Assembly (NCBI GenBank): GCA_020629235.1
Contig: JAHDDS010000007.1
Coordinates: 2,584 to 38,530, forward strand
Direction: 5' to 3'
DNA length: 35,947 nt
From: Planktomarina sp.
Lineage (GTDB): Bacteria; Pseudomonadota; Alphaproteobacteria; Rhodobacterales; Rhodobacteraceae
Both the position numbers and the translations under genes were made by a program. A model generated the notes under the pieces. The model was not told where the DNA came from, made no database searches, and saw nothing but the letters and a program-made list of their open reading frames with translations. This document shows, in pieces, positions 3,008 to 10,293 of this stretch (the stretch's first letter is position 1; every line of letters starts with the position of its first letter).

Positions 3008-3903
3008 GCCAATCCCCGCAGGGCAAAGGCGGAGACCATCATTCCCGATACGTACAGGGTGACGCCGGTGCCGTTGTACCATGGGGCCAAGCCCTTGGGG
3101 TCTTTCATCAGCTTTGCCATGGCCAGGATTTGAAAGCCCAACAACACTGTGACTGCCAACGCGTGCCAGGGCTTGCCCCAGATCAACAGCATGGGGATCA
3201 CCAGGCATTGCGCCAAGGCCATGACGGTGCAGGCAATTTTTGCGGCGTCCTTTGGGCCCAACATGGCGGGCAGGGACCGAACGCCCGTGGCGCGGTCGCC
3301 TTCCAGTGCTTTGAAATCATTCAGGGTCATGATGCCGTGGGCACCAAAGGCATACAGCAAAGCGATGATCACCACCTCAAAACGCGGTGCACCTGCAGCC
3401 AGAATGGCGGCCCCGGTGAACCATGGCAACGCTTCGTAGGACAGGGCCACAAGGCCCGGTCCCCACCAGCCGGATTTCTTCAAACGCACAGGTTCCGCGG
3501 AATAGGCCCAAGCGGCCAGCACCGCCGCAATCGTGGCCCCAAAGCCCCAGGGCCCCAATAAAGACCCCACCGCCAACGACAAAGCCGACATGGCCAAGGC
3601 GATGTACAAACCCCACCGTCCCGGCACGCGGCCGGATGGGATGGGGCGATCGGGTTCGTTGATGGCGTCCACGTGGCGGTCGCACCAATCGTTTGCGGCC
3701 TGGGACATGCCGCAGACCAAAGGCCCCGCCAGCAAAATCCCCAGACCGACAAGACCGATGGAATCCATGATCGGGGCATTGACGGACACCACGCCGCACA
3801 GGAACGCCCACATGGGCGGAAACCATGTGATGGGTTTGATCAGCCGCAAAAGGGCAGACGGGTCTGGCAAGCGCCGTGGTTGTACATCAGAAATGACAGT
3901 CAT
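3004..3903 (-). CDS. bchG: Bacteriochlorophyll synthase (geranylgeranyl transferase) BchG
   Basis: BchG is an integral membrane UbiA-type prenyltransferase that esterifies bacteriochlorophyllide a with geranylgeranyl diphosphate. The 299-aa product carries the polyprenyl-diphosphate binding motif NDWCDRHVDAINEPDRPIPS, a second Asp-rich stretch (LNDFKALEGDRATG), and the family N-terminal segment LLRLIKPITWFPPMWAF. The ATG at 3903 is preferred over an in-frame TTG at 3939 because the family starts a few residues before that segment. No good Shine-Dalgarno sequence precedes it. It is the first gene of the operon; bchE and bchJ, its usual upstream neighbours in Rhodobacter, are absent here and an unrecognised gene lies 48 bases upstream. 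Confidence 0.95.
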   Translation of the reverse strand: MTVISDVQPRRLPDPSALLRLIKPITWFPPMWAFLCGVVSVNAPIMDSIGLVGLGILLAGPLVCGMSQAANDWCDRHVDAINEPDRPIPSGRVPGRWGLYIALAMSALSLAVGSLLGPWGFGATIAAVLAAWAYSAEPVRLKKSGWWGPGLVALSYEALPWFTGAAILAAGAPRFEVVIIALLYAFGAHGIMTLNDFKALEGDRATGVRSLPAMLGPKDAAKIACTVMALAQCLVIPMLLIWGKPWHALAVTVLLGFQILAMAKLMKDPKGLAPWYNGTGVTLYVSGMMVSAFALRGLA

Positions 3904-3905
3904 GC

Positions 3906-3923
3906 TGTCAACTAGACACCACA
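3906..3923. promoter_or_regulatory. Possible PpsR/CrtJ-type site (TGT-N12-ACA) before bchG
   Basis: The sequence TGT, twelve bases, ACA lies immediately upstream of the bchG start. TGT-N12-ACA is the consensus of the aerobic photosynthesis repressor PpsR/CrtJ. The motif is short, so about nine chance occurrences are expected in a window of this size; the position in front of a bch operon is what makes it worth listing. It sits only two bases from the start codon, which is unusually close for an operator. Confidence 0.35.
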
Positions 3924-3951
3924 ATCCGAGTCGATGCAAGACAGCTGTGGG

Positions 3952-4644
3952 TCAGCCTTTGGCGGGCGGATCTCTTTCGATGGGATTGGTTTGGTGGCTG
4001 ATTTGCGGTTTGTCAGACATCGACGAATGCCGTGCCATAAAGCGCAGGATCAAGGTGCAGTAAAACTCAATCTCTGCCTTGTTTTGCGCCAATCGACCCC
4101 AGAACAGTTCCAACCGTTCCGACAGGGCCTTGCTGTGTTTGCCCACGGCCATAGGATCGGCCACCGCCAGGTTCAGCACCGGCATGACAATGTCGTTCAA
4201 CGTCCGGGCCGCCAAATCGTTTTCCGTGTCTTGCAGCAAAGTTGGCGCCCGACCGGGCAAGAACAATGCGTTGATCGAACCGATGAAGCTTTTGAAGGAA
4301 ATGATAACCCGCTGTATGCCATTGCGGGCTTCTTGGCCCGTGACGGACAAACCGTTCAACGTCACGCCATGACTGTCCAATTCAAAATCAGCTGCGGTTA
4401 ATACCACCGGGGCCTGGCCGCGCGGCAAATAGGCCCGCAAGACATTTCCCAGATCCGGGATCAACGCGTCGTTGGGCCCGGTAGGTTTGTGAAACGCCAT
4501 GGTCTGCGTGAACGAGTCCGTCACGGCTGTGATGCGATCCAACATCCACGCCCCAGCTTGCCGGCCAGACGTGTCCCGTTTCACCCAGATCGTCAGCGAT
4601 GGCAGAAGTACATCGGGTGTATTTGTTTTGGCGAGGTCCGCCAT
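3952..4644 (-). CDS. Protein of unknown function between bchG and the CheBR-kinase locus
   Basis: I do not recognise this 230-aa protein. It looks soluble, with no signal peptide or membrane segment. The middle (roughly residues 85-150) alternates hydrophobic strands and helices, and the C-terminal 25 residues are polar and probably disordered. The start ATG at 4644 has only a weak GA-rich sequence in front. The gene shares a 226-base divergent gap with the CheB/CheR-kinase gene and a palindromic operator candidate in that gap. It is followed after 48 bases by bchG on the same strand, so read-through into the photosynthesis operon is possible. A role as partner of the signalling locus is conjecture. 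Confidence 0.7.
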   Translation of the reverse strand: MADLAKTNTPDVLLPSLTIWVKRDTSGRQAGAWMLDRITAVTDSFTQTMAFHKPTGPNDALIPDLGNVLRAYLPRGQAPVVLTAADFELDSHGVTLNGLSVTGQEARNGIQRVIISFKSFIGSINALFLPGRAPTLLQDTENDLAARTLNDIVMPVLNLAVADPMAVGKHSKALSERLELFWGRLAQNKAEIEFYCTLILRFMARHSSMSDKPQISHQTNPIERDPPAKG

Positions 4645-4710
4645 TTCAGTTCTTTCTCAATCTTTGTGTTGCAGACTTTATCGTCCCCGCCCGACACATG
4701 CCTTAAAACT

Positions 4711-4729
4711 TGTTAATGAAATATTAACA
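4711..4729. promoter_or_regulatory. Perfect palindrome that fits a CtrA box
   Basis: TGTTAAT, five bases, ATTAACA forms a perfect 7-bp inverted repeat. On both strands it contains TTAA-N7-TTAAC, the full binding consensus of the alphaproteobacterial response regulator CtrA. A third TTAA lies six bases further upstream. It is 67 bases before the minus-strand gene of unknown function and about 140 bases before the CheB/CheR-kinase gene. CtrA commonly controls motility, chemotaxis and signalling genes in Rhodobacterales, so control of one or both genes is a reasonable inference. Confidence 0.55.
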
Positions 4730-4870
4730 GCCATTCGGATGTAATTTAGGAAATGAAATTAATTTGGGTAACAGTTGCCCTTTAAGGTGTGTAGAATGTT
4801 AATTGTGCGCGCTTAAGGGGAATTCAGATATTTACCGTTGGCTGCCTATTTTTTGCAAAGGTTGCTCGAA

Positions 4871-7800
4871 ATGAATGAAACATCTTCTAACGACACTGGT
4901 GCTGGGTTGCCTGCGGAAGACGCAAGTACCCGCCGCACGTTGGGCGCTGTTGATTCCAGCTTCTATTTGATTGGGGTCGGTGCTTCAGCGGGGGGGCTGG
5001 ACGCGATCAAACAGCTTATCGCCCAAGCCGGCGAAGGATTTTCACATTCATTTGTGATCATCCAACATATTTCACCCGACCATAAATCTTTGATGACAGA
5101 AATCCTGGCCCGCGAGACGGGTCTGGCGGTGCGCGAGGTGACGGATGATATGCCGGTTTTGGCGGGGCATATTTATCTGATTCCGCCGAAAACCAATGTG
5201 ATGATCCAAGGCACAATCGAAGATGATCGCCCGATGATAGAACACGGCGACCTGGAATCGCGTGCAGGACAGCGGTTTTCGCTGGTGGCCCCGTCGCCGC
5301 GCCCGAAATTGAACCTGCCGATCGATGTGTTCTTTCATTCCTTGGCAGAAGCCGTTGGAGAACGCGCCATTGCGATTGTTTTATCGGGCACCGGAACCGA
5401 TGGCAGCCGGGGGTTGCGGGCGGTGAAAGATCGCGATGGTTTCGTGATGGTCCAAGACCCGCTGACTGCCGATTTTGACGGAATGCCCCTGTCTGCGATT
5501 TCCACCAACCTGGTGGACATGGTGGCGGCACCCGACGCCATGGTGGCCGAGTTGAAGCGGTACATCACACTGCGGGAATCCGGCAGTTTCGACATTGAAC
5601 AATTGTTCCAAGACCGTGACGTGGAATTGGAACAACTGCTGGTGCGCATCAGTGAAGAAGCGGGCATTGATTTCACCAAATACAAAAAACCCACCCTGAA
5701 GCGGCGAATTGCCCGGCGGATTGCCCTGAACGATCGCAAGTCGCTGCAAGACTATATCCAATTCACCCACGAACACCCCAACGAATTGGCCATTCTGCAC
5801 AGAGAGTTTCTGGTGGGGGTGACCAACTTTTTCAGGGACGCAAGTTCTTGGAAAGCGTTGTCGGAACAGATCTTGCCGGGCATTTTTGACAAGGGCCCGA
5901 TAGATGAACCCGTCAAGATTTGGTCGGTGGGGTGTTCGACGGGTGAAGAAGCGTACACCATCGCGTTCATCTTGGAAAAATACAGGACCGACCACGACAT
6001 CAAGCGCGACTTCCGGATTTTCGCCAGCGATGTGAACGAAGACGCGGTGCGGTCGGCCAAGGACGGGATTTATTCAGAATCCGTCATCGACGAAATTCCA
6101 CCGGAATATCGCAACAGCCATTTCCTAAGCTTTCATGGCGGCACGTTTCATATCACCAGCACGATCCGCAACCGGGTGATCTTCAACGCCCACGATGTCT
6201 TGCAAGAACCGCCCTATATCAACACGGATCTGGTGATTTGCCGCAATATGCTGATCTACCTTAGCCCGGAAATGCAGAAGAAAGTGCTGTCGCTGTTTTC
6301 GTTTTCCCTGCGCAATGAAGGGCATTTGTTTCTGGGGGCGGCGGAAACGGTGACCCACCAGTACACCAAGTTCGAAACGGTGGTGTCGGCGTTCCGAATT
6401 TACCGCAACATTCGACCCAACCAGCGCAGCCAATTCCGCCGTCCGCTGTTGGAAAAAGCGACCGAGACTTATCCGCTGCCCCGGTTGCGGCGCTTGGCGA
6501 CCCGCGAACCCCAGCGGTCGTCAAGTGCGGTGGGTCCGATCCTGGAAAATACGCTGCGCAATATTGATGGCTGCGTGCTGATTTTGGACGAAGGCGGGAA
6601 TGTTCTGGAATCGGTTGGGGACTATCTGAAGTTCATCAACCTGCCGTCCCAGGCGTTTTCAGCCAACGTGTTCGACTTGGTGCATGACCGACTGAAAAGT
6701 TCCATCTCTTTGTTGATCCGTCGGGCCGAAACCCAAGGGTCCGCAGAATCTTTGGGCACGAAGTGTTCCTTTGGGGACCGGATCGAACAGGTGGATTTAT
6801 TCTGCCAACGGATCGAATGGGAAACCCAGCCCGTTGCCTATTCCATCCTGCTGCGCAAAACGAAAGAGATTGCAACACCGCAGGTCACGATCAACACAGA
6901 CCAGTTGTCCCAAGATGCGGACATGGCGATGATCACCCGCCTGGAAGGCGAGGTCGAAACGCTTCGCGAACTTCTTAGCGCCACCACAGAAGACTTGGGC
7001 ATTTCAAACGAAGAACTGCAAACCGCCAACGAAGAATTGACGGTGTCCAACGAAGAACTTCAGGCCAACAACGAAGAAATGCAGTCCATTAACGAAGAAC
7101 TGCACACAGTAAACGCCGAAAATGCCGACAAGATCGTGCAACTGGAAGCGGCGAATGCTGATATTGAAAACCTGCTGAACACGGCAGATTTGGCCGTTCT
7201 TTTCTTGGACAATGCTTTGTGTATTCGTCGGTTCAACCCAGCCTTTTGCCGGTACGTGGACCTGAAGGTGGGGGATGTGGGGCGGGGCTTGGCCAGTTTT
7301 ACATCGAATTTTGCCCAGCCCGATTACACCCACTTGCTGGATGCGATTGCCACCGCCCAGGACGACAGGCAAGAAGTGCAACGCGAAATGCTGTTGCAAG
7401 ATGGATCCTATGCCTTGGTGCGCGTTCGCCCGTTCGAGGTAGAGGTGGCCGATCGGTTCGCGGGCCTGGCGATCACCGTTCTGGACATCACCCAATCGCG
7501 CAAGTTGAAAGAAGAACTGCGCATCCAACGCGACCAGTTGCAGGGCCTGATTGAAGCGGAATCCGCAGGGTTTTGGGACTGGGATTTACGCGATGGGTCA
7601 GAATACGTCAGCCCGCGTTTGTTCACCATGCTGGGGTTTGACCACGGGGCCATGGCACCGGATGAACAGGGGTGGCGGTCCTTTGTGAACCCCAAGGACT
7701 TGCCTGCCTTGGAAGCGGCGCTGCAAACCCACTATGAAAGTCGCGGCAGTATCCCGTTTCACAAAGAAGTCCGTTTTTCCCATCGGGACGGGACCGAACG

Positions 7801-8617
7801 GTGGTTCATTTGCCGCGGGCGGGTGGTGGATTGGTCCAACGACGGCCAGCCGTTGCGCATGTTGGGCGTCCAAATTGACATCACGGATATGAAGTCCCGG
7901 CAACTGACGTTGGAACACACGGCGGACGAACTTTATCAATTCAGCCATTCCACGATCCACAATCTTTTGCAGCCGTTGAACACGCTGTTGCAGGGGTTTG
8001 ATCTGCTGAAAACAGACCTTGGCGAAAGCAGGGACGTGGCAGACACGGTGGATATATTGCAAGGGGTGGTGGACCGCATGCGCACGCGCGTTATGGGCAT
8101 AAGGTCCTATTCCAGCATGTTTTCAGATCAAGACGTCCCAAAGATGTTGGACCTGACCAAGATCGCGAAAGACACGGTCACAGACCTGAAAACCAGGGTG
8201 GAAGACGCATCGGCGCAGATCAACATTCCAGACTTGCCCCAGGTGTTTGGGCACGAACAACAGGTGGCGGCCCTGATGCAGAACCTGATCAGCAATTCGC
8301 TGAAATACCGCAGCCCCAAACGGGATTGTGTCATCACCCTGTCCGGCGAATTCTTGGCCGACGGGTACGTGGCGATCACGGTCAAGGACACGGGCCAGGG
8401 CATCGCAAAAAGCGAACGCGACAAAGTGTTTGATCTGTTTCAGTCAGGTGCTGGCCACGACGGGCACGGCGACCGCGGTGTCGGGCTGGCGGTTTGCCGA
8501 CGCATTCTGTCGCAACACGGCGGCACCATCCAAATCGCCAAAAGCGGCCGCAGTGGAACGTCAGTTGTGTTCACCCTGCCCACCGGCGCCCCCAGCATGA
8601 AACAGGCCAGGCCTTGA
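4871..8617 (+). CDS. CheB-CheR-coiled coil-PAS-PAS-histidine kinase hybrid
   Basis: This 1248-aa cytosolic protein fuses a CheB methylesterase, a CheR methyltransferase and a sensor kinase. CheB (about 30-220) has the catalytic triad Ser39 (GASAGG), His66 and Asp177. CheR (about 250-510) has the SAM-binding motif GCSTGEEAYT at 354. A coiled coil with repeated NEEL units (about 690-765) follows, then two PAS domains (about 765-875 and 890-1010). The kinase has phosphorylatable His1030 (IHNLLQPL), an N box around 1138-1142 and the G boxes DTGQG (1173) and DRGVGLAV. I chose the ATG at 4871, with AAAGG upstream, over the in-frame TTG at 4838. No receptor, CheA or CheW gene lies nearby. A PAS kinase and a response regulator follow directly, suggesting one phosphotransfer locus. 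Confidence 0.93.
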   Translation: MNETSSNDTGAGLPAEDASTRRTLGAVDSSFYLIGVGASAGGLDAIKQLIAQAGEGFSHSFVIIQHISPDHKSLMTEILARETGLAVREVTDDMPVLAGHIYLIPPKTNVMIQGTIEDDRPMIEHGDLESRAGQRFSLVAPSPRPKLNLPIDVFFHSLAEAVGERAIAIVLSGTGTDGSRGLRAVKDRDGFVMVQDPLTADFDGMPLSAISTNLVDMVAAPDAMVAELKRYITLRESGSFDIEQLFQDRDVELEQLLVRISEEAGIDFTKYKKPTLKRRIARRIALNDRKSLQDYIQFTHEHPNELAILHREFLVGVTNFFRDASSWKALSEQILPGIFDKGPIDEPVKIWSVGCSTGEEAYTIAFILEKYRTDHDIKRDFRIFASDVNEDAVRSAKDGIYSESVIDEIPPEYRNSHFLSFHGGTFHITSTIRNRVIFNAHDVLQEPPYINTDLVICRNMLIYLSPEMQKKVLSLFSFSLRNEGHLFLGAAETVTHQYTKFETVVSAFRIYRNIRPNQRSQFRRPLLEKATETYPLPRLRRLATREPQRSSSAVGPILENTLRNIDGCVLILDEGGNVLESVGDYLKFINLPSQAFSANVFDLVHDRLKSSISLLIRRAETQGSAESLGTKCSFGDRIEQVDLFCQRIEWETQPVAYSILLRKTKEIATPQVTINTDQLSQDADMAMITRLEGEVETLRELLSATTEDLGISNEELQTANEELTVSNEELQANNEEMQSINEELHTVNAENADKIVQLEAANADIENLLNTADLAVLFLDNALCIRRFNPAFCRYVDLKVGDVGRGLASFTSNFAQPDYTHLLDAIATAQDDRQEVQREMLLQDGSYALVRVRPFEVEVADRFAGLAITVLDITQSRKLKEELRIQRDQLQGLIEAESAGFWDWDLRDGSEYVSPRLFTMLGFDHGAMAPDEQGWRSFVNPKDLPALEAALQTHYESRGSIPFHKEVRFSHRDGTERWFICRGRVVDWSNDGQPLRMLGVQIDITDMKSRQLTLEHTADELYQFSHSTIHNLLQPLNTLLQGFDLLKTDLGESRDVADTVDILQGVVDRMRTRVMGIRSYSSMFSDQDVPKMLDLTKIAKDTVTDLKTRVEDASAQINIPDLPQVFGHEQQVAALMQNLISNSLKYRSPKRDCVITLSGEFLADGYVAITVKDTGQGIAKSERDKVFDLFQSGAGHDGHGDRGVGLAVCRRILSQHGGTIQIAKSGRSGTSVVFTLPTGAPSMKQARP

Positions 8618-8632
8618 AGAAAGGAAACGCCC

Positions 8633-9790
8633 ATGTCCCAAAGCGCTGAAATAGGCCTTGCCCCCAGCTTGATGGAGGCGGGTTATAACCTGACCAGTTT
8701 CTTGGAACAGGTGACAAACGTTGCCCCCAGCATCATCTATGTCTTCAATCAAAAAACCCGCGCCAACGAATATGCAAACCGCAACATAGCCGATGTAATG
8801 GGATTTTCAGAAGCGGAAGTCCAAGCCATGGGCAGCGCGGTTTTGCCAGAACTGTGCCACCCCGAAGACATGCCGCGCATCTTGGAATTTCACCAAAAGC
8901 TGCAGACCATCGACGACGGCGAAGTGGCCACTATCACCTATCGCATCCGGCACAAAGACGGCGGGTGGCGATGGCTGATTTCTTACGACACCGTGTTTGA
9001 ACGGGACGCCCAGGGGCTGGTTTTGCGCACCATCGGGGCCACTGCTGATATCACGGCGCAAAAGGAAGCCGAGGCCAAAACCAAAGACGCGCTGCGCGCC
9101 GAAGCGCTGGCCACGGAACAGCTGCGCGCCTTTGCCTATTCCGTGTCCCATGAAATGCGCGCGCCCACCGTCACTTTGCAAATGTTGTTGGGGGAGTTAG
9201 AGAACGGCCACGCCGGGCCCTTGTCCGACGATGCCAAAGACTTGGTGGCCAAAGGTTTGGAAACCGTCGCCCGCATGCAGGCGGTGACGGAAAACACGTT
9301 GGATTTCACGAAACTCGTGGAACAGGGCACCAGTTTAGAACGGGTCAACCTGGGGCACATCCTTTCGAACGTCATGCAGGACCTTGCGGCCAATGTGACG
9401 GCAGCTGACGCAACGGTGAAATGGGCCAAGCTGCCAGACTTGCTGGTGGACAGCCTGCAAATGCACGCTCTGTTCCGCAACTTGATTTCCAACGCACTGA
9501 AGTACAGCCGACCCGGGGTGCCGCCTGCGGTTAAAGTCACGGCCCAGGTCGGCAGCGCCGCCACACTGATCGCCGTACAAGACAATGGTCAGGGCATCGA
9601 CCCAAAGCACTGGAACAGCATTTTTAAAATGTTCTGGCGCGGCCACCACCACGATGACGTTCACGGCATCGGCCTGGGTCTGCAGATTTGCCGCCATGTG
9701 GTCACGGCCCATGGGGGGGACATTTGGGTGGACAGCAAACCAGGCGAAGGGTCCACTTTCTGGATCCGCCTGCCGGGGGCCAACCAATGA
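8633..9790 (+). CDS. PAS-domain sensor histidine kinase
   Basis: This 385-aa soluble kinase has one PAS domain of the PAS_3 type (about residues 20-142, with the RIRHKDGGWRWLISYDT core), a coiled linker, and a HisKA domain with phosphorylatable His173 (SVSHEMRAPT). A HATPase domain follows with N box FRNLISNALKYS and G boxes DNGQG and GIGLGLQIC. No membrane segment or signal peptide is seen, and the PAS lacks the Cys motif of LOV domains. A good AAGGAAA Shine-Dalgarno precedes the ATG, which is 15 bases after the hybrid kinase stop. The stop overlaps the response regulator start. The sensed signal is unknown. Confidence 0.93.
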   Translation: MSQSAEIGLAPSLMEAGYNLTSFLEQVTNVAPSIIYVFNQKTRANEYANRNIADVMGFSEAEVQAMGSAVLPELCHPEDMPRILEFHQKLQTIDDGEVATITYRIRHKDGGWRWLISYDTVFERDAQGLVLRTIGATADITAQKEAEAKTKDALRAEALATEQLRAFAYSVSHEMRAPTVTLQMLLGELENGHAGPLSDDAKDLVAKGLETVARMQAVTENTLDFTKLVEQGTSLERVNLGHILSNVMQDLAANVTAADATVKWAKLPDLLVDSLQMHALFRNLISNALKYSRPGVPPAVKVTAQVGSAATLIAVQDNGQGIDPKHWNSIFKMFWRGHHHDDVHGIGLGLQICRHVVTAHGGDIWVDSKPGEGSTFWIRLPGANQ

Positions 9791-10194
9791 CGCGGATCGC
9801 AAATTTGGTGTTGGTGGACGACAATCCCATTGATCAACTGCTGTATCGGCGCATGATCGAACGCACGGGCAAAGTGGACAATTTGCAAGAATTCATGAGT
9901 CCTGATCACGCCATTGCATACTTTCAAGATAACCCGGATGCGTCGTCGACTGTTGTGTTCTTGGATATCAATATGCCACGTACGGACGGGTTCGAATTTC
10001 TGGAAATGTTGGCGGACAATGTGACGGGCGCCAAAGTGCCTGTGGTGGTGATGCTGACATCGTCTTTGAACCCCCAAGACAAGGCACGCGCCGCCAATTT
10101 CCCCATGGTGAAAGAGTTTTTGCACAAACCCCTTCGGGCGGCCGACATCGAACGGATCGCCAACGCATATGGGGTGCAATCTGGGGATCTGTGA
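9787..10194 (+). CDS. Single-domain response regulator
   Basis: This 135-aa protein is a lone receiver domain without an output domain. The key residues are present: acidic pair Asp11/Asp12, phosphoacceptor Asp60 (FLDINMP), Thr91 and Lys114 (FLHKPL). The ATG at 9787 overlaps the kinase stop as ATGA, so it is probably translationally coupled to that kinase and its likely phosphorylation target. It resembles the small receivers that follow phytochrome-like or PAS kinases. Such proteins act by protein-protein contact or as relay intermediates; the downstream partner is not encoded next to it. The frame extends upstream inside the kinase gene, but the receiver fold starts at the chosen ATG. Confidence 0.93.
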   Translation: MTRIANLVLVDDNPIDQLLYRRMIERTGKVDNLQEFMSPDHAIAYFQDNPDASSTVVFLDINMPRTDGFEFLEMLADNVTGAKVPVVVMLTSSLNPQDKARAANFPMVKEFLHKPLRAADIERIANAYGVQSGDL

Positions 10195-10206
10195 TTTGGG
10201 GGGTGT

Positions 10207-10293
10207 TGGTGCCCAGAAGAGGACTCGAACCTCCACGTCCATACGGACACTAGCACCTGAAGCTAGCGCGTCTACCAATTCCGCCATCTGGGC
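10207..10293 (-). tRNA. tRNA-Leu (anticodon CAG)
   Basis: Read on the minus strand, the sequence folds as an 87-nt class II tRNA. The acceptor stem GCCCAGA pairs with TCTGGGC, followed by discriminator A and an encoded CCA (10209-10207). The D arm is GCGGAATTGGTAGACGC, the anticodon loop CTTCAGGT gives CAG, a long variable arm follows, and the T arm carries GGTTCGAGTCC. The anticodon region matches that of the Escherichia coli leucine CAG isoacceptor. It reads CUG, a common Leu codon in these genes. It lies opposite to its two neighbours, 12 bases after the response regulator stop. Confidence 0.97.

Follow-up and report, generated by a model that had tools for sequence, protein, structure and literature searches.

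What does a CheB-CheR fusion protein act on when no chemoreceptor is at hand? Fusions of this kind are widespread among bacteria, and to our knowledge few of their targets outside chemoreceptor systems have been identified. The question is raised by a compact signalling locus of the photosynthetic marine bacterium Planktomarina sp. (Rhodobacteraceae; assembly GCA_020629235.1, contig JAHDDS010000007.1, positions 2,584 to 38,530; these 35,947 nucleotides are called the window). A first-pass annotation of the DNA had described four genes next to bchG, and this layout stands as given: P0001, a CheB-CheR hybrid with PAS and kinase domains, is followed after 15 bases by the PAS kinase P0002 and, via an ATGA overlap, by the receiver P0003; P0004, coding for a protein of 230 amino acids, is divergent from P0001, and bchG comes next. 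The protein family of P0004 is called U230 here. Its gene partnership with CheB-CheR hybrids is well supported. We favour, with a probability of roughly 0.5, a reading in which the pair forms a methylation module of the cytosol that works without receptors and in which U230 is partner, substrate or output; in the window this module would be linked to a phosphorelay.

U230 and its CheB-CheR neighbour

In the samples searched U230 is an undescribed protein family confined to the Rhodobacteraceae. P0004 has no Pfam or NCBIfam match, 27 U230 members have none at E 0.001, and no PDB chain was matched by the U230 profile (best E 0.39). Literature searches, limited mostly to open literature and in part to excerpts, and made for a protein without a name to search, returned no description of it. 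With P0004 as the sole query weak relatives appeared in 10 of 197 other genomes of the family, at E-values down to 4.5e-13. The match in genome G128 (genomes are labelled G, loci L) was discarded as false; it is, by eye, an AraC-type protein with no CheB-CheR gene nearby. The remaining nine all adjoin CheB-CheR hybrids that were found independently with P0001. With a profile built from ten sequences, U230 was detected in 30 of 394 genomes, a count that includes the genome of the window. At the level of the order a sample gave 44 of 292 genomes, all listed under the same family; a sample of the class gave the window's own as the one match in 289 and none in the other 288. A single Roseobacter U230 used as query matched no plasmid record. 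U230 is fast-evolving and its counts are lower bounds; hybrids counted below as lacking U230 (e.g., L074) could hold a copy too divergent to be seen. L066 was accepted as a member, L139 (E 2e-4) is doubtful.

When the neighbourhoods of the profile matches were inspected, a CheB-CheR hybrid directly adjoined U230 in 24 of 30 genomes. U230 is divergent in 15 of these adjacent loci, downstream on the same strand in 8 and upstream on the same strand in 1; in the divergent locus L121 a further U230 copy flanks the hybrid at its opposite end. The adjacency persists through these changes of orientation. The order-level search, with flanks of 1.5 kb, showed CheB or CheR in 25 of the 30 U230 loci listed, and G187 and G300, two of the five misses, proved adjacent once longer stretches were inspected. 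Seven of eight named loci (L140-L146, from Roseobacter and one Sulfitobacter metagenome-assembled genome, MAG) have a divergent hybrid; in the eighth, L147 of a Shimia MAG, U230 is present twice and a CheB-CheR gene is about 6 kb away. L143, L144 and L147 duplicate the contigs of L119, L050 and L120, respectively.

A less biased check is offered by 44 matches that were selected for their similarity to P0001, without regard to U230. Of these, 41 entered a tree of CheB-CheR domains, and the ten other genomes whose hybrid falls into its U230-linked group all have an adjacent U230. The suggestion that the 230-residue protein is a possible partner is supported at the level of the genome.

Three genomes have two neighbouring U230 paralogues, which flank the hybrid in G260 (L121, 5541-10469), stand in tandem in G328 (L124, 6925-8461), and stand in tandem about 6 kb from a hybrid in G342 (L120, 6544-8061). 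G328 possesses a third copy (L127) with no CheB-CheR gene within about 7 kb. Separately, a GGDEF-EAL protein is encoded beside the CheB-CheR gene of one U230 pair (L053, 2153-4195), a single hint of a possible link to cyclic di-GMP. As for cellular location, 1.6 is a cut-off often used for mean hydropathy of membrane segments. The highest 19-residue mean is 1.46 in the window's U230 (1.41 in P0001, 1.10 in P0002), which makes a membrane segment unlikely here; the top value among 36 U230 sequences is 1.85, so that some relatives may have one.

Methylation, receivers and chemoreceptors

Besides that of the window, 28 U230-linked hybrids were analysed. CheB, CheR and PAS domains matched in every one, a kinase at E 0.001 in none. 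All 28 retain the CheB triad and also the tested CheR residues, bar one Thr-to-Ser exchange. Because these residues are intact and a kinase is missing throughout, the chemistry conserved in the pair is probably methylation and demethylation, not phosphorylation.

Receivers were counted with a broadened receiver profile and distance limits of 300 and 1000 bases. Of 30 hybrids lacking U230, 25 have a receiver that is fused or no more than 300 bases away, as against 0 of the 28 linked to U230; at 1000 bases the counts are 26/30 and 1/28. A Pfam scan identified an HWE kinase in 12 of 15 hybrids without U230, and further hybrids of this kind (L059, L071, L079, L080 and L081) match a HATPase profile. 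L073 and L074 are devoid of kinase match, receiver and U230, and L061 of kinase match and receiver. The frequency of fused or close receivers in hybrids without U230 supports, in general, the view that the receiver belongs to the kinase-type CheB-CheR hybrid. The common form of the U230 system is a two-gene pair of a kinase-less CheB-CheR-PAS protein and U230, in which U230 occupies the usual place of the receiver. Receivers do occur farther off, 890 bases from U230 in L137 and about 3 kb in L131, the latter with a PAS kinase at about 5.5 kb. A U230-linked hybrid with a kinase of its own was seen in the window alone. Among the kinase-type proteins, those of L071 (4364-8863) and L079 (4088-8539), CheB-CheR-PAS kinases of 1499 and 1483 amino acids, end in a fused receiver.

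Does the pair require chemoreceptors? Methyl-accepting chemotaxis proteins (MCPs) were searched for in 51 of the 59 other U230-positive genomes, i.e., all except G156, G162, G211, G293, G320, G376, G416 and G475. Ten genomes have no match at E 0.001 (G145, G302, G394, G420, G421, G437, G461, G512, G520 and G566), all of them at least 99% complete; G149 has one at E 9.2e-4 only. For seven of these genomes (G145, G302, G420, G421, G437, G461 and G566) CheB or CheR can be seen next to U230. Because the adjacent genes persist in genomes without an MCP match, one can conclude that the U230 pair does not need chemoreceptors. In the 40 MCP-bearing genomes an action on receptors is possible.

The search for CheA and CheW was confined to the genome of the window. 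That genome contains no match to MCPsignal (PF00015) and none to the CheW-like domain (PF01584) in an assembly that is 86.9% complete; as controls, each model matched in 7 of 14 known genomes. MCP matches exist in 2 of the 19 other genomes of the genus. Because MCP and CheW matches are both missing, the P0001 locus is not ordinary chemotaxis, and the original proposal of an intracellular system without chemoreceptor or CheW is borne out to this extent.

The exceptional locus of Planktomarina

The window departs from the common form. Its U230 adjoins a CheB-CheR protein of another branch, and U230, kinases and receiver are found together (Table 1). The tree comprises 59 CheB-CheR cores, with L143, L144 and L147 left out as duplicate contigs and three of the 44 P0001 matches outside it (G054, one of two in G144, and G002). 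The 28 linked hybrids fall into one group, together with L080 and L081, which both have kinase and receiver. P0001 pairs with L059, the sole relative above 50% identity among 393 other genomes. Further, 46 plasmid records have a place that spans 80% or more of P0001; none of the 2012 records that matched reaches 60% identity. The hybrid of the window departs from the linked group in having a HATPase_c domain and a receiver after one gene. L059 has a receiver, and neither U230 nor a PAS kinase is beside it. The idea that the four genes travel as a set is not supported by the comparison: 28 of 28 other linked hybrids are without a kinase and without a receiver within 300 bases, and L059 has no adjacent U230 or PAS kinase.

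Table 1. Features of the signalling locus and its borders, in window positions.
Feature	Positions	Strand	Remarks
P0004, U230 gene	3952-4644	minus	Open reading frame (ORF), 230 amino acids; undescribed family neighbouring CheB-CheR hybrids
Divergent intergenic region	4645-4870		Between P0004 and P0001; 226 bases, 38.5% GC
Promoter-like site	4768-4797	plus	Scores 9/12; shuffles of the 301-base region average 0.5
P0001, CheB-CheR-coil-PAS-PAS-kinase hybrid	4871-8617	plus	1248 amino acids
CheB methylesterase domain	4970-5554	plus	Pfam 6e-50; triad S39/H66/D177 intact
CheR, N-terminal and S-adenosylmethionine (SAM)-binding domains	5624-6385	plus	Pfam 3e-50; GCSTGEE and CRN motifs intact
Heptad coding repeat	6986-7123	plus	Spaced by 21 bases; coiled-coil-like linker that joins CheR to PAS
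Two PAS domains	7163-7870	plus	PAS_10 and PAS_3 (Pfam)
Kinase region	7958-8584	plus	His1030 in H-N box and complete HATPase_c (Pfam, alignment)
P0002, PAS-HisKA-HATPase kinase	8633-9790	plus	385 amino acids; starts 15 bases after P0001
P0003, receiver without output domain	9787-10194	plus	135 amino acids; ATGA overlap with P0002
tRNA-Leu(CAG)	10207-10293	minus	Abuts right edge of signalling block

P0001 is the sole match spanning the CheB and CheR domains in its genome (2.59 Mb, 124 contigs), and within the genus proteins matching it at E 1e-60 or better occur in 2 of 20 genomes, the window's own counted. Its frame is open back to a TTG at 4838. Pfam locates CheB at residues 34-228, CheR_N at 252-299, CheR at 317-505, PAS_10 at 765-874, PAS_3 at 912-1000 and HATPase_c at 1128-1238. 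The CheB triad, the CheR SAM site and the two PAS domains read in the first-pass annotation were all retrieved by Pfam and a residue check. The complete kinase read there fares less uniformly: HATPase_c is complete, yet HisKA is unmatched by Pfam and the residue after the phospho-acceptor His1030 is an Asn (window 7958-7963), so the kinase is not fully standard. In four aligned kinases (P0002, L059, L080 and L081) an Asp or Glu follows the His, and L059, 53% identical to P0001, has His-Asp. Because of the H-N box and the unrecognised HisKA the P0001 kinase may be weakened. Blue-light sensors of the LOV type carry the cysteine motif GxNCRFLQ. No such motif is present in the PAS domains of P0001, and the reading as a LOV sensor was rejected.

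P0002 (Pfam: PAS_3, HisKA, HATPase_c; box H173-E174) is by its domains a standard HisKA kinase. It resembles the kinase end of L059 (30% over 345 residues, 152 bits) more than that of P0001 (27% over 349, 107 bits). P0003 matches Response_reg, possesses the phospho-acceptor D60 and the conserved K114, and is 33% identical to the receiver of L059; at 135 amino acids it is a receiver without an output domain, as had been claimed.

The block is flanked by the upstream region of bchG and by tRNA-Leu(CAG), with its borders at 3940-3952 and 10194-10293. Its absence beside bchG in the loci examined from the same genus suggests an insertion or rearrangement junction.

Competing explanations and known systems

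How might such a module work? PAS input would pass through the heptad coil and set the balance between methylation by CheR and demethylation by CheB. The target would be a non-receptor protein, most likely U230 itself or a complex containing it. In the window, with U230 next to a CheB-CheR-PAS-PAS-kinase of another branch and then a PAS kinase and a receiver, a separate kinase arm (P0002, standard by sequence, and P0001, perhaps weakened) would set the phosphorylation of P0003. We infer these biochemical roles, i.e., U230 as target or output, methylation as the signal, and both kinases acting on P0003, from the arrangement.

A more far-reaching proposal can be made tentatively, with the odds somewhat against it: U230 and CheB-CheR-PAS would constitute a two-gene system in their own right, in which U230 replaces the receiver as output and a PAS sensor has direct control over a reversible carboxyl methylation whose target is a soluble protein other than a receptor, with no MCP, CheA, CheW or kinase involved. 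The window would be a re-partnered version to which a kinase-receiver branch was added, uniting methylation and phosphorylation in one locus. The proposal gains likelihood from the contrast in receivers: hybrids linked to U230 have none beside them, other hybrids usually do. The data hint that the two genes signal by methylation and do so independently of receptors.

A number of observations weigh against the preferred reading of a receptor-less methylation module. The completeness of the window's genome (86.9%) limits what the absence of MCP and CheW matches can tell, and 40 of the 51 tested U230 genomes do have MCPs. Adjacency is missing in 6 of 30 U230 genomes: in G342 the hybrid is about 6 kb off; in G376, G320, G162 and G293, the last a doubtful U230 match, none is in the stretch; and in G156 the contig ends. 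L056 has a receiver gene (8189-8773; Pfam 1.6e-8) that is convergent to U230 at a distance of 27 bases. Because the 28 linked hybrids form one group of the tree, the contrast in receivers may represent a single evolutionary change and not 28. A conserved CheR methylation site in U230 was looked for and none was found; the best candidate of CheR type, an E-x-x-A column, has Glu in 20 of 35 U230 sequences and Asn in the window, which counts against a single conserved methyl-acceptor at this position. The window's U230 is a long branch in the U230 tree (nearest L129, L128 and L133; L058, L132, L134, L136, L139, L143, L144 and L147 left out) and carries a Ser where Arg116 is nearly invariant across the family. 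For both reasons it may be drifting. Finally, when the window alone was held with the linked hybrids the tree was rejected (p-AU, approximately unbiased test, 3e-32), and the window plus L059 gave p-AU 0.006. Held with the linked hybrids plus L059, L080 and L081 the window was not rejected (p 0.43); all these groups were chosen after the tree had been inspected. Accordingly P0001 may belong to the wider group, but the tree does not place it close to the hybrids usually paired with U230.

Several of these points are what one would expect if the locus were an ordinary two-component system of a CheB-CheR hybrid kinase and its receiver, with U230 as a chance or relict neighbour in this genome. L059, the partner of P0001 in the tree, has a receiver and lacks an adjacent U230; a receiver is the rule beside hybrids without U230 (25/30); the window's U230 is divergent in sequence; and the block sits at a bchG/tRNA junction that same-genus loci do not share. 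We nevertheless consider this unlikely: U230 adjoins a CheB-CheR hybrid in 24 of 30 genomes, and a chance landing beside a CheB-CheR gene of another branch is improbable where P0001 is the genome's only CheB plus CheR match.

U230 might also be a local transcription regulator of the CheB-CheR gene and not a signalling partner. Of the 24 adjacent loci 15 are divergent, an arrangement that local regulators typically show, yet in 8 of the 24 U230 is located downstream of CheB-CheR on the same strand. In 27 members no DNA-binding family was detected at E 0.001; HTH_19 and HTH_Cmi2_C came up at E 0.18, each in a single member. This explanation is improbable.

The surroundings invite a third alternative, in which the block regulates photosynthesis genes and its sensors respond to light or redox state. 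It lies beside bchG, pucC, bchP and idi, the U230 gene ends 48 bases upstream of the likely ATG of bchG (at 3903) on the same minus strand, and PAS domains can bind flavin or heme. The relatives do not share this setting. No ORF matched the window's IDI, BchP, PucC or BchG (E 1e-20) in 69 other stretches, three of which repeat contigs of others. Within the genus six of the 7 other BchG-bearing genomes were compared (G584 left out), and in 6 of 6 neither U230 nor CheB-CheR nor receiver stands beside bchG, one of these loci having an 89% identical BchG; matches to the window stop at the start of bchG. Upstream of bchG these loci have, as judged by eye, a cytochrome c gene and hemE/hemC, or other genes. 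In G583 the place of the window's U230 directly upstream of bchG is taken by a triple-PAS Fis-type regulator of PpsR-like build (L188, 11052-12560). Further, the LOV motif is missing, and since about 37 bases upstream of bchG align with the closest relative, bchG may keep its own promoter. The connection to photosynthesis implied by the first-pass annotation is thus unsupported, and regulation by the block is highly improbable. Just upstream of the likely ATG of bchG lies a sequence TGT-N12-ACA (3906-3923), which we take to resemble a PpsR/CrtJ site.

That CheB and CheR are chemotaxis enzymes might suggest a remnant of a chemotaxis system; this we reject as most improbable, given the missing MCP and CheW matches, the scarcity of MCPs in the genus and the intact active-site residues.

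Among known systems, CheB-CheR-PAS(-kinase) hybrids with a neighbouring receiver have the domain order of P0001; the window adds the divergent U230, a HATPase_c kinase whose box reads H-N and, ahead of the receiver, a further PAS kinase. A partial precedent, and the closest experimentally tested analogue among those considered, is cfcABCDE of Pseudomonas putida, which according to the accessible passages comprises the kinase CfcA, CheB/CheR proteins (CfcB/CfcC) and CfcD with a REC domain, i.e., CheB and CheR genes with a sensor kinase and a receiver domain as in the window (PMC4951495). A chemotaxis role was ruled out by earlier work cited there. CheB and CheR are separate proteins in this system, the link to cyclic di-GMP runs via CfcR, and U230 is not mentioned in these passages. 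One finding from this source has to be added to the unfavourable points above: the scored phenotype was retained when cfc genes apart from cfcA were mutated, so that cfc, as far as the passages go, does not show what CheB and CheR do. Alternative-function chemosensory pathways (CheR-TPR, PMC3447774) likewise employ chemotaxis methylation enzymes for other outputs; as described in the excerpts they are chemosensory gene clusters, whereas the window's genome has no MCP or CheW match. The excerpted part of an Azospirillum survey (PMC4618731) counts kinases with CheB methylesterase and methyltransferase domains, like P0001, and gives neither a function nor a partner for them. Caulobacter HmrABCX, in the portion available a kinase and phosphotransfer pathway (PMC11481889), is not directly comparable with the window.

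For CheB-CheR fusions U230 is a dedicated, conserved neighbour and hence a concrete candidate substrate or output. The natural kinase-less two-gene versions, one of them in Roseobacter insulae strain YSTF-M11 (L140), and the genomes without MCP matches would permit its study in isolation.

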